Of a DNA stretch of 24,708 bases, positions 16,227 to 22,269 are shown piece after piece. The DNA is from a virus. The translations under genes and the position numbers were made by a program. Positions within the stretch are counted from its first letter, which is position 1, and the number at the start of each line of letters is the position of its first letter. The stretch spans positions 1 through 24,708 of IMG/VR virus record IMGVR_UViG_3300043410_000777; one strand, written 5' to 3'. The notes beneath the pieces were generated by a model. The model ran no database searches. It saw nothing but the letters and a program-made list of their open reading frames with translations, and was not told the DNA's origin.

Positions 16227-16739
16227 ATGACTACGCTCAACATCCTGTCCGTTGCCGACACCACGAAGCTGATCAAGTCGATCAAGGGCCGGGCCGCGTC
16301 CGTTCAGCGCGACATCCATACCGCCGCAGTCTCAACCCTCGCCCATATGCGGGATCACGGGGACTACACGCTCGCCGTCGCCCTCATGAATGCCCTCCCG
16401 AACGGTCAGCGCGTGAAGGGACTCGCCGCTTGGTACAAGAACTTTTCAGGTGGCAAGTTCGCTGTGCGTCAGGATCGCAAGGCCGGTAACGCTTGGGTCG
16501 GGCAGCTTGCGAAGGACCGCGACAGCACCGACTTCATGGTGGACGAAGCGAACGAAGTGACCTTTGCCGACTTCACGGCTGAGAAGGATCCGCAGCAGAC
16601 TACCGTTGCGTCGCTGGTCAAGTACTTGGAGCGCCTTGCGGATAACGACGACACGCTGCCGAATGGCAGCCCCAAGGTTGCGCCGGAAGCCCGTGCCCTC
16701 GCCATGAAGATGCTGGAGGATGCGGCGAAGGCCGCGTGA
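16227..16739 (+). CDS. Phage hypothetical protein (170 aa), monocistronic
   Basis: The frame opens upstream at 16113, but ATG 16227-16229 has GGAGAACGCCAAC before it and is the first Met of the charged, helical protein (MTTLNILSVADTTKLIKSIK). Recognisable blocks are QRDIHTAAVSTLAHMRDHGD and LMNALPNGQRVKGLAAWYKN, then FADFTAEKDPQQTTVASLVK. These recur as an uncharacterised protein in podovirus early regions. No catalytic motif or membrane segment is seen. It stands alone, with a long leader, a palindrome and a terminator behind it, which suggests separate, strong expression. Its function is unknown. Confidence 0.75.
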   Translation: MTTLNILSVADTTKLIKSIKGRAASVQRDIHTAAVSTLAHMRDHGDYTLAVALMNALPNGQRVKGLAAWYKNFSGGKFAVRQDRKAGNAWVGQLAKDRDSTDFMVDEANEVTFADFTAEKDPQQTTVASLVKYLERLADNDDTLPNGSPKVAPEARALAMKMLEDAAKAA

Positions 16740-16756
16740 TTCTGGTGGGCTTCAAC

Positions 16757-16780
16757 TGATATGGTGCTAGCACCATATCA
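16757..16780. repeat. Perfect 24-bp palindrome
   Basis: Each half is TGATATGGTGCT, and the 24 bases are fully self-complementary without a mismatch or spacer. It lies 17 bp after the stop of the 170-aa gene and 20 bp before its terminator stem. It could be an operator for a dimeric protein, or an RNA hairpin that is an RNase III or stability element in the 3' UTR. Confidence 0.95.
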
Positions 16781-16799
16781 CAACCTCGCGCCGCCTGTC

Positions 16800-16829
16800 A
16801 AGCCCCCGCATGGGGGCTTTTGCGTTTTG
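16800..16829 (+). terminator. Rho-independent terminator of the 170-aa gene
   Basis: AAGCCCCC-GCAT-GGGGGCTT (16800-16819) forms an eight-pair stem with a four-base loop and runs into TTGCGTTTTG, a T-rich tail. It is placed about 60 bp after the stop codon. It separates the isolated gene from the operon that begins at 17212. Confidence 0.85.
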
Positions 16830-16840
16830 CTGCACCTGCG

Positions 16841-17187
16841 TGAGTAGCAAATCGACGTTTTGAGTAGCGTGAGTAGTTAAATGAGTAGTAAAGAATGTCG
16901 TGTAAGTGCTTGATTCGCAAGTGAGAAGTAGTAGGTATACCCCTATTTGAGTAGCTGAGTAGCTATATTACAGGCTCCTAGCCAATTTGCCCTTATGCCC
17001 AACACGTGCGCAACAAGTTTTTTCTGTGTTGCTGCGGTCAAGGGAGGGCTGGCGCTGGTTCTCGGAGCTACTCAAATTACTCAAAAGGACATCTTTGCAC
17101 CCATCACCTTGATCCTAAAAGGATTTCGCGTGAGTAAATTTTCGATTTTGCTGCCCAAACGCCCCCATTTGCTACTCAAGCTACTCA
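16841..17187. repeat. TGAGTAG iteron-like array in an intergenic region
   Basis: TGAGTAG occurs exactly six times on the plus strand (starting at 16841, 16861, 16870, 16882, 16948 and 16956). It occurs three times inverted as CTACTCA (17068, 17172 and 17181). Near matches are TGAGAAG at 16922, TTACTCA at 17077 and TGAGTAA at 17131. Forward copies cluster on the left and inverted copies on the right. A small palindrome ATCCT-AAA-AGGAT lies at 17112-17124. No gene is supported here. The layout resembles replication iterons or an operator array. Confidence 0.85.
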
Positions 17188-17211
17188 GAACCACACAAAG
17201 GACACAGGACC

Positions 17212-17448
17212 ATGACCGACGAAAGCAAGCCAACAATTAGTAAAGCCCTTGTCGACAAGATGTTTAGACATGTACGCGGCGGCTACCTCGACATGGACTG
17301 GAAGGTCTTCGACAGCGACGGCAACCCTGACCCAAAGAAGCGCCTATTCGGTGGCGCGTGGATCGTTGTCGAGGACGCATACACATATGTATTCCTGCGT
17401 GTGAACGAGGACATGACCCTGACCGAATACACAAAGGAGTACGAGTGA
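17212..17448 (+). CDS. Hypothetical protein (78 aa)
   Basis: ATG 17212-17214 is preceded by an AGGA site at close spacing. The 78-aa product has a charged N-terminus (MTDESKPTISKALVDKMFRH). A predicted beta part follows (GGYLDMDWKVFDSDGNPDPK, then GGAWIVVEDAYTYVFLRVN) and an acidic end. I do not recognise it. Its stop overlaps the next start as GTGA, so the two form a coupled pair that opens the right-arm operon directly after the iteron-like region. It could include a regulator of that region, but nothing in the sequence proves DNA binding. Confidence 0.65.
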   Translation: MTDESKPTISKALVDKMFRHVRGGYLDMDWKVFDSDGNPDPKKRLFGGAWIVVEDAYTYVFLRVNEDMTLTEYTKEYE

Positions 17449-19387: not shown

Positions 19388-20464
19388 ATGAGCGTCATCA
19401 ATTTCGGTGGCAGCGTTTCGCTGTCTGAGTTTGCCACGGCTGTCGGCACGGTAGGGCGAGAGGTAACTATCATCGGCGAGGGCGAGCCGGGTATCGGCAA
19501 GTCAGCAACACGCAACGCACTTATGCAATTGTATCCCGAGCATCACCATGCGTACATCGATTGCACGTTGCTTGACCTTGGCGACTTCGCCCTGCCGTAT
19601 ACGGTCGAGGAGAACGGACTCAAGGTTACCCGCTTCGCTCCCAATGCACGGTTCGGGTTCCACATGGGCAAGCCGGTTGTCATCATGCTGGACGAGATCG
19701 GCAAGGCTATGAAGGCTGTCAAGAATGTGCTCTTGACGCTCATGCTGGAGCATCGCATCGGTGACCAGTATCTACCCGAGGGTAGCATTGTGTTCGGCAC
19801 CACTAACCTGCAATCGGATGGTGTCGGCGACTCGCTGGAAGCACACGCCAAGAATCGCATTGCGTTTGTCAAGGTTCGCAAGCCCGACTCCGACTCTTGG
19901 ATCGAGTGGGCCATTAACAACGACGTTGCGCCCGAGATCATCGCATGGGTAAAGCAGTTCCCACATGCACTCGCCAGCTACACCGACCCGAGCCAGTCCG
20001 ACAACCCGTATATCTTCAACCCTCGCAGGGCGGCGCAGACAGCGTTTGTCACGCCACGGTCGCTTGAGAAGGCTAGCCACATTGCCAAGCAGCGAGCATC
20101 ACTTGGCGACAACCTGACCATCAGTCTCTTGACCGGCACCATCGGCGAGTCGGCGGCGCGTGACATGAACGCGTTCTTTACGGTGGTCGATAAGCTGCCC
20201 ACATGGGATGCGGTTATCGCTTCGCCCGAGACTGCCAAGCTGCCCGATAACGACGCGGTGGCTAAGTGCATCATGGTGTATAGCGCAATCACACGGATCG
20301 AGCGTGAGACGCTGGGTAAGTGGATGACCTACCTGCAACGTATGGATAAGGAGTGGCAAGCCCTGTTCGCCACTAGCGTCATGAAGTCCCCGAGCAAGCA
20401 GGTGTTCTGTGTGCTCAACAAGGAGTTCAAGGACTGGGCGCTTGCTAACCAATGGCTGTTCTAA
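19388..20464 (+). CDS. MoxR-family AAA+ ATPase
   Basis: The 358-aa protein starts at ATG 19388-19390 with AGGAG upstream. It has the full AAA+ set: Walker A GEPGIGKS (32-39), a loop with LLDLGDFALPY, Walker B VVIMLDE (97-103, D102/E103), sensor 1 in FGTTN (136-140), and an Arg in EAHAKNRI (R157) in the place of the MoxR arginine finger. The C-terminal 150 residues are helical (lid plus extension). MoxR ATPases are hexameric chaperones that act with VWA-domain partners to mature or load metal cofactors or remodel complexes (RavA/ViaA, CobS/CobT, NorQ/NorD). Its partner here is probably the protein at 21106-22269. Its target in infection is unknown. Confidence 0.85.
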   Translation: MSVINFGGSVSLSEFATAVGTVGREVTIIGEGEPGIGKSATRNALMQLYPEHHHAYIDCTLLDLGDFALPYTVEENGLKVTRFAPNARFGFHMGKPVVIMLDEIGKAMKAVKNVLLTLMLEHRIGDQYLPEGSIVFGTTNLQSDGVGDSLEAHAKNRIAFVKVRKPDSDSWIEWAINNDVAPEIIAWVKQFPHALASYTDPSQSDNPYIFNPRRAAQTAFVTPRSLEKASHIAKQRASLGDNLTISLLTGTIGESAARDMNAFFTVVDKLPTWDAVIASPETAKLPDNDAVAKCIMVYSAITRIERETLGKWMTYLQRMDKEWQALFATSVMKSPSKQVFCVLNKEFKDWALANQWLF

Positions 20465-21105: not shown

Positions 21106-22269
21106 ATGAACAAGCTGACCGCTGAACAGCGTGTGCAGAAGGCGCACGTATGGCTGATGAAGAATCCCAAGTACTGCCTGTACTCTGGTGTGTTTATGCT
21201 GGGCCGTGTCGAGGTTGTCGATGACGTACCTACTGCATGCACTAACGGACGCGACGTTAAGTATGGCCGCGCGTTCACCGACAAGCTGACCGATCAGGAG
21301 TTGCGCTTCGTTATCCTGCACGAGAACTTGCACAAGGCGTTCCGTCATCTGGAAACGTGGAAGCATCTTTACAAGAAGAATCCTCGCCTTGCCAACATCG
21401 CGTGCGATTACGTCATCAACCTGATGATCCACGACAGCGATCCAAGCTATGTGGACGTTGCCTTCCCCAAGATCGGCGGCATGCTCGACGAGAAGTTCCG
21501 TGGCATGGACGCTGGTACCGTGTTCCGCATGCTTGAGCAGGAGCAGGAGCAGGATGGTGGTGAAGGTGGCGAGGGTGACGGGGGTGGTGGCTTCGATCAG
21601 CACGACTGGGATGGCGGCGAGGGCATGACCGATGCCGAGAAGGAGACGCTTGCCCGTGACATCGATCAGGCATTGCGTCAGGGTGCGCTGCTGGCTGGCA
21701 AGATGTCTGGCAACGTACCGCGTGAGGTTACCGAGGCGCTGACTCCCAAGGCTGACTGGCGCGAGGCTATGCGTGAGTTCATCAACAGTACGTGTGCCGA
21801 CAAGGAGGAGAGCACGTGGCGTCGCCCGTCACGTCGCTGGATTGGACAGGACGTTTATATGCCTAGCGTTATCGGTGAGCGTGTCGGTCGTGTACTGATT
21901 GCAGCCGATATGTCTGGCTCTATGTGGGACATGCTGCCCCGTGTGCTTGGCGAGTTGAAGGCTATCTGCGAGACGGTTCGCCCCGAGGGTGTTGACCTTG
22001 TGTACTGGGATACCGAGGTGTGTGGTCACGAGGCGTATGACATCGACCAGCTAGATAACATCCTGAGCGTGACTAAGCCGCGAGGCGGTGGCGGCACCGA
22101 TGCATCGTGTGTCCCTAGGTTTATGGCAGACAAGAAGCTTAAGCCTGAGTGCGCTGTGATCCTGACCGATGGTTACGTCGGTGCTTGGGGCGAGTGGCCC
22201 TGCCCGACGCTGTGGGGTATTACAACTAACGTTGTCTCGCCGATTGGCAAGACGATCCAGATTTCTTAA
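21106..22269 (+). CDS. Metallopeptidase-like plus VWA-like protein (DUF2201 type)
   Basis: This 387-aa protein has two recognisable parts. Residues 60-110 hold the HExxH zinc motif HENLH (H72, E73, H76) within VILHENLHKAFRH and a following DYVINLMIHD, the layout of the DUF2201 putative metallopeptidase domain. After a Gly/Glu/Asp-rich linker (about 144-175) the C-terminal part is VWA-like, with an intact-looking MIDAS: D268-M-S270-G-S272, T331 in GGGGTD and D355 in ILTDGYVG. VWA/DUF2201 proteins usually pair with MoxR ATPases. Start ATG 21106-21108 has GAGGAA before it. Peptidase activity is predicted only; the acidic linker is unusual. Confidence 0.85.
   Translation: MNKLTAEQRVQKAHVWLMKNPKYCLYSGVFMLGRVEVVDDVPTACTNGRDVKYGRAFTDKLTDQELRFVILHENLHKAFRHLETWKHLYKKNPRLANIACDYVINLMIHDSDPSYVDVAFPKIGGMLDEKFRGMDAGTVFRMLEQEQEQDGGEGGEGDGGGGFDQHDWDGGEGMTDAEKETLARDIDQALRQGALLAGKMSGNVPREVTEALTPKADWREAMREFINSTCADKEESTWRRPSRRWIGQDVYMPSVIGERVGRVLIAADMSGSMWDMLPRVLGELKAICETVRPEGVDLVYWDTEVCGHEAYDIDQLDNILSVTKPRGGGGTDASCVPRFMADKKLKPECAVILTDGYVGAWGEWPCPTLWGITTNVVSPIGKTIQIS

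Follow-up and report, generated by a model that had tools for sequence, protein, structure and literature searches.

A conserved mirror-image iteron array as a probable IHF-assisted replication origin in a group of aquatic phages

The window, that is, the whole stretch of 24,708 bases of viral DNA analysed here, carries between positions 16841 and 17187 an array of short repeats that is very probably a bipartite replication origin of the iteron type, bent by IHF, bound by the phage's own primase-helicase, and of the same mechanistic kind as the origins of P4, SaPIs and PICIs. The suggestion of a replication origin, one of three made in the initial annotation, is supported by the conservation, where the replication operon begins, of a bipartite array that includes IHF-type sites, by the single cluster found per genome, by a repeat order also seen in the P4 origin, and by the co-occurrence with a Rep-like primase-helicase. 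Replication would therefore start at this array. The origins of most environmental phages are unknown, and for a large group of phages from aquatic habitats the array would provide a recognisable origin as well as a candidate initiator. No description of it was found in the literature searched.

The repeated word in the window is TGAGTAG, with nine exact copies inside the array and none elsewhere in the window. Six are on the forward strand (starting at 16841, 16861, 16870, 16882, 16948 and 16956) and three are inverted (17068, 17172 and 17181), as initially annotated. Because shuffled versions of the window contain a mean of 1.86 copies over its whole length, only about 0.03 would be expected per 347 bp, which agrees with the original claim of far fewer than one by chance. 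For 7-mers of any sequence, the highest count within 347 bp is nine, against four or fewer in 200 dinucleotide shuffles and four in the window once the array is removed. The density of TGAGTAG outside the array is at or below chance; in a 61.9-kb relative (G015), four of the 12 copies lie outside it. Two degenerate copies reading TGAGTAA, which had been missed earlier, also belong to the set (17077-17083 and 17131-17137). The former, read as TTACTCA, is offset by 9 bp, measured on the TACTCA core (17069 and 17078), from the exact copy that starts at 17068. Including both, the consecutive spacings are 20, 9, 12, 66, 8, 113, 9, 53, 42 and 9 bp, and those first described (8, 9, 9, 12 and 20 bp) are correct.

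The arrangement of forward copies on the left and inverted copies on the right, already noted in the initial annotation, turns out to be the true mirror plan of the element. The left half begins with an outer cluster of four exact copies on the + strand (16841-16847, 16861-16867, 16870-16876 and 16882-16888), the fourth of which is direct in the window and inverted in most relatives. A gap holding an IHF-type site, AATCAAGCACTTA (16903-16915, - strand), separates this cluster from an inner tandem pair, TGAGTAGcTGAGTAG, with an 8-bp period and followed by ctatatta (16948-16962, + strand). The central spacer (16963-17067) is presumed to be the unwinding region. On its other side, the right inner pair (17068-17083, - strand) consists of the exact copy at 17068-17074 and the degenerate one at 17077-17083, followed by a weak, degenerate IHF-like sequence, GGATCAAGGTGAT, that fails the consensus (17102-17115, - strand), by the second TGAGTAA in the opposite orientation (17131-17137, + strand), and by an outer cluster of two exact copies with a 9-bp period (17172-17187, - strand), directly upstream of the first right-arm gene. 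The A+T content is 0.55 in the array and 0.45 in its flanks, and the central spacer is not markedly AT-rich.

The genetic context is that of a phage contig, with head and terminase genes, including the terminase large subunit, transcribed leftward. Left of the array lies a phrog_1448 gene of unknown function (16227-16739, + strand), followed by a hairpin resembling an intrinsic terminator (16800-16819, + strand). The region from 16740 to 17211 has no convincing genes, in line with its earlier description as gene-free and at the start of the right-arm operon, whose first gene begins with the ATG at 17212 and encodes a 78-aa protein of unknown function (17212-17448, + strand). The operon also encodes a MoxR-like AAA ATPase (phrog_1297; 19388-20464, + strand), used as a query for relatives, a pyrimidine dimer glycosylase, and a DUF2201 metallopeptidase/VWA protein (21106-22269, + strand), downstream of which full-length relatives encode PolA, an SNF2 helicase and the primase-helicase. 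The product of 21106-22269 carries the PHROG label 'HNH endonuclease' (phrog_1314), which looks wrong against its Pfam assignment, DUF2201. After the phrog_1448 gene there is also a perfect palindrome with 12-bp arms, TGATATGGTGCT/AGCACCATATCA (16757-16780). In two relatives (L053 and L208) the equivalent position is taken by another palindrome, followed by T-runs, so this element is probably part of the terminator of the phrog_1448 gene. No RNA families or tRNAs were found in the window.

Relatives were collected through the terminase, the ATPase, the phrog_1448 gene and the motif itself. A homologous array occupies the equivalent position, before the rightward replication operon, in 57 distinct related sequences, a number that does not count independent events because the arrays are related by descent. 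Neither of the two outcomes named initially as refuting, an equal density of the motif elsewhere or a lack of conservation in relatives, was therefore observed. TGAGTAG itself is the repeated word in several relatives (L053, L208/L210, L260, L284 and L168/L290), and other lineages use TGTTCC, TGTTCAC, TGTTTCA, TGTGTCA, TTATTC, TGTAGG and others. The code of orientations and spacings is conserved across six or more motif types. In the usual plan of the 57 arrays, the left half has three direct copies 9-10 bp apart and, 13-14 bp further on, an inverted one. It is completed by a pair with an 8-bp period, beyond a gap that measures 52 bp (alternatively 61-66, 76 or 86 bp, the extra length being about whole helical turns). 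After about 107 bp comes a mirrored pair with the same period, separated by 66-67 bp from a mirrored cluster. The window conforms to this plan, but deviates in some spacings and in its direct fourth copy. Arrays are richer in A+T than their flanks in all six types, the spacer of about 107 bp is often AT-rich, and in full genomes the motif clusters only once.

Other repeats were met in the same phages and in further contigs. A 17-bp palindrome, ATACTGTCAGACAGTAT, occurs 5-11 times in each genome of TGAACA-type relatives, also inside the origin array region (L146:2128-2760; G006, G007 and G008, the latter three represented by L181-L184, L193-L196 and L204-L207). It is absent from G001 and G015, and looks like the operator of a separate regulator. 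Several other viral contigs are rich in TGAGTA (L243:3700-4076, L271:12063-12225 and L261:4998-5030), a number of them with an exact 8-bp tandem period.

The gaps between iteron groups hold a second conserved element. Matches to the IHF consensus, WATCARNNNNTTR, number 43 in the 57 arrays and fall at fixed positions in these gaps, with at least one in 33 arrays, whereas the reversed and complemented control patterns give none. A stricter pattern, WATCAANNNNTTR, is observed 40 times against 1.66 predicted from array shuffles. The site at 16903-16915 is the only consensus match in the window's array and stands at the conserved place, and many relatives have a better match in the right gap than GGATCAAGGTGAT. 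Judging from these sequences, IHF would bind the sites.

The candidate initiator is a primase-helicase of about 955 aa encoded in each of the 14 array-bearing genomes whose length allowed a check. It combines an AEP-like primase, a DUF927 helicase (E 3e-24) and a C-terminal winged helix, and it matches phage primase/helicase families as well as, by profile, the SCCmec Cch helicase (E 6e-14). The assignment of the N-terminus as AEP-like comes from profile matches, with a weak PDB match to an AEP-type polymerase domain (E 0.53). A model of the C-terminal 252 residues (mean pLDDT 80, pTM 0.51) has its best structural matches in SaPIBov1 Rep (8tch, Z 9.5) and Cch (5dgk, Z 8.2), and its last 120 residues match the winged-helix protein TcpK with oriT DNA (5vfx, Z 8.2); the origin-binding domain of P4 alpha is not among the matches listed, which speaks neither for nor against a relationship. 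By analogy with these proteins, the primase-helicase probably binds the iterons. In the TGAGTAG-type genome G015 (61,874 bp), the array (25.8-26.2 kb) and the primase-helicase gene (40.0-42.9 kb) are some 14 kb apart, and the right-arm operon continues with PolA, a PD-(D/E)XK nuclease, an SNF2 helicase and the primase-helicase, here of 951 aa. The contig of the window ends before this gene, which is known from the full-length relatives and presumably also belongs to the window's phage. The primase-helicases of the TGAGTAG and TGTTTCA types have a common six-residue insert in the C-terminus. No domain-specific covariation between motif type and C-terminus was seen, since identity in this region falls between types about as much as in the rest of the protein; three further contigs sought for motif-initiator pairs ended short of an array.

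Other proteins were also considered as binders of the repeats. A 97-aa winged-helix protein and a DUF3310-HTH protein were rejected as universal binders, not being found in some array-bearing genomes. The phrog_1448 protein was rejected as the motif-determining binder because its gene is kept beside both TGAGTAG arrays (L053 and L210) and a TGTGTCA array (L212); homologues were not found in other types.

In the proposed mechanism, the origin would consist of two mirror-image sets of 7-bp iterons, each with an outer cluster and an inner pair (of 8-bp period in most), and a bending site for host IHF separating cluster from pair; some 107 bp of spacer would lie between the halves. The primase-helicase, whose gene lies at the distal end of the operon beginning at the array, would use its winged helix to bind the iterons, and the folding of each half by IHF would allow cluster-bound and pair-bound subunits to meet. 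Two helicase rings would then assemble, open the spacer and prime bidirectional replication. Some features of the window speak against an origin, namely its direct fourth copy, its degenerate right IHF-like site and its spacer without marked AT-richness. GC skew follows the gene strand and gives no separate replication signal.

Iterons beside the start of an operon could also regulate transcription, and the array might be an operator without replication function, its repeats bound by a repressor or activator of the right-arm (early) operon that the phage encodes. Temperate phages do have multi-site operators, and the location, immediately before the first right-arm gene and after a terminator-like hairpin, would suit one. 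This possibility, raised in the initial annotation as a repressor array, is nevertheless the weaker one and appears unlikely: a mirror-symmetric plan of two halves over 340 bp, IHF-type sites in the gaps of many relatives and a P4-like order of repeats are at odds with it, as are the single cluster per genome and the way the array tracks the Rep-like primase-helicase. In addition, no sigma-70-like promoter was found on the + strand of the array, the adjacent phrog_1448 protein does not track the motif, and the small winged-helix protein of 97 aa was not found in the TGTGTCA genome. The third function suggested, a partition-like site, has little in its favour. Short direct and inverted repeats with IHF sites are also found in centromeres and attP regions, but none of the right-arm proteins scanned in the window and in G015 matched parA/parB or an integrase. 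Moreover, a search of the bacterial genome collection gave no relative of the primase-helicase, and hence there is no sign of a prophage or plasmid state. A centromere-like or recombination (att or resolution) site is accordingly very improbable. That the array is a chance or low-complexity repeat without function is refuted by its conservation, with a homologous layout in 57 distinct sequences and none of 200 shuffles exceeding four copies, and is hardly worth considering.

A further alternative concerns the initiator rather than the function of the array. The origin could be recognised by a separate protein, such as the 97-aa winged-helix protein or a different small protein of the right arm, and the primase-helicase would then be loaded in a second step. 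The operon does encode other DNA-binding candidates (the 97-aa protein, which is MarR-like, and the HTH-DUF3310 protein), and the C-terminus of the primase-helicase shows no covariation of its own with the motif. On the other hand, the primase-helicase was found in all array-bearing genomes checked and neither candidate was, and the proteins most similar to it in structure are initiator helicases in which the same domain binds iterons (PMC7581432). There is thus a small chance, though a real one, of a separate initiator.

Read as an origin bound by the primase-helicase, the array can be compared with several known systems. Its association with the Rep-like primase-helicase, and not with the structural genes, is supported by four relatives (DSL-LC04, HTVC027P, HTVC023P and 023Pt_psg01) that share the terminase and portal with the array-bearing phages but have another replication module and no such primase-helicase; no comparable array was present in the 50 kb examined of each. 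Iteron plasmid origins that use IHF (pSC101, R6K and P1) combine iterons, an AT-rich region and an IHF bending site; the phage arrays likewise have iterons and IHF-type sites, with a spacer that is often AT-rich. Such plasmids depend on RepA/pi-type initiators, longer iterons and host helicase loading, and no initiator of this type was seen among the proteins scanned.

In the annotated P4 record, the type 1 repeats of ori are ordered as three direct, one inverted and two direct copies, the order found in the left half of most relatives. The window differs by its four direct copies, as well as in word and polarity. The P4 repeat, TGTTCACC, is nearly TGTTCAC(T), one of the motif types of these phages, although the polarity of the motif relative to the AT-rich side is opposite in P4. 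P4 has separate ori and crr without annotated IHF sites, whereas these phages have two mirrored halves in one locus. P4 alpha is likewise a primase-helicase with several functions, and a winged helix binds it to the origin repeats, but its primase is of the bacterial (Toprim) type (PMC4234260) and that of these phages is AEP-like, so that an alpha-type initiator with a Toprim primase is not what these phages have.

SaPI Rep is reported to recognise the ori iterons through its C-terminal domain (PMC7581432), and in PICI origins two iteron sets flank an AT-rich region (PMC6092414), possibly the melting region of these SaPI/PICI origins (PMC6092414, PMC7581432). Similarly, the phage arrays have two iteron sets flanking a spacer, and full-length relatives encode the DUF927 helicase with a C-terminal winged-helix domain known from SaPIBov1 Rep and SCCmec Cch (8tch, 5dgk). 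In contrast to SaPIs and PICIs, which are satellites or islands with the origin directly 3' of the initiator gene, these are phages of roughly 62 kb with the origin about 14 kb away, at the operon start. Their initiator is fused to an AEP-like primase, and IHF-type sites lie in the gaps that separate the iteron groups. The array would work like a SaPI/PICI Rep-ori module, but is not classified as a member of that family.

The repeated word has a history of its own. A tree of the neighbouring ATPase with 48 rows requires at least seven changes of motif type; TGAGTAG appears in three separate places, and the ATPase of the window is nearest to those of TGTTCC-type phages. The iteron word therefore changes or moves independently of the neighbouring ATPase, as if each lineage had its own start code. 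Tentatively, these phages may represent a widespread uncultivated aquatic group with one conserved, IHF-assisted mirror-image origin, in which the 7-bp word has been repeatedly replaced while the layout stayed fixed; word and initiator, exchanged by recombination, might jointly determine replication incompatibility groups among phages that co-infect a host. This natural series, in which different iteron words stand on a single fixed scaffold, offers a ready data set for the joint change of initiator and origin specificity, a long-standing question in plasmid and satellite replication.

Cultured relatives suited to testing exist, with Rollin as the clearer case and RHph_TM3_14A as the less clear one. 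An isolate search with the primase-helicase alone retrieved Pseudomonas phage Rollin (27% identity) and Rhizobium phage RHph_TM3_14A (24%). In Rollin, eight of the nine TATGCAA copies form a single bipartite array whose left gap contains an IHF-type site. Interspersed with this array are further inverted repeats, AAAAGGTAGCAAGTTACTACCTTTT and its relatives, that make up a second set (L444:1-490). In RHph_TM3_14A the array is less clear; the intergenic region preceding the same operon contains two IHF-type sites together with recurring TCATAA/TCATTA words. The homologue of the primase-helicase in a Rhizobium phage record that has attL/attR features (MN988472, 42239-45322) is annotated as 'putative integrase', a label that its similarity to the primase-helicase suggests to be a misannotation.
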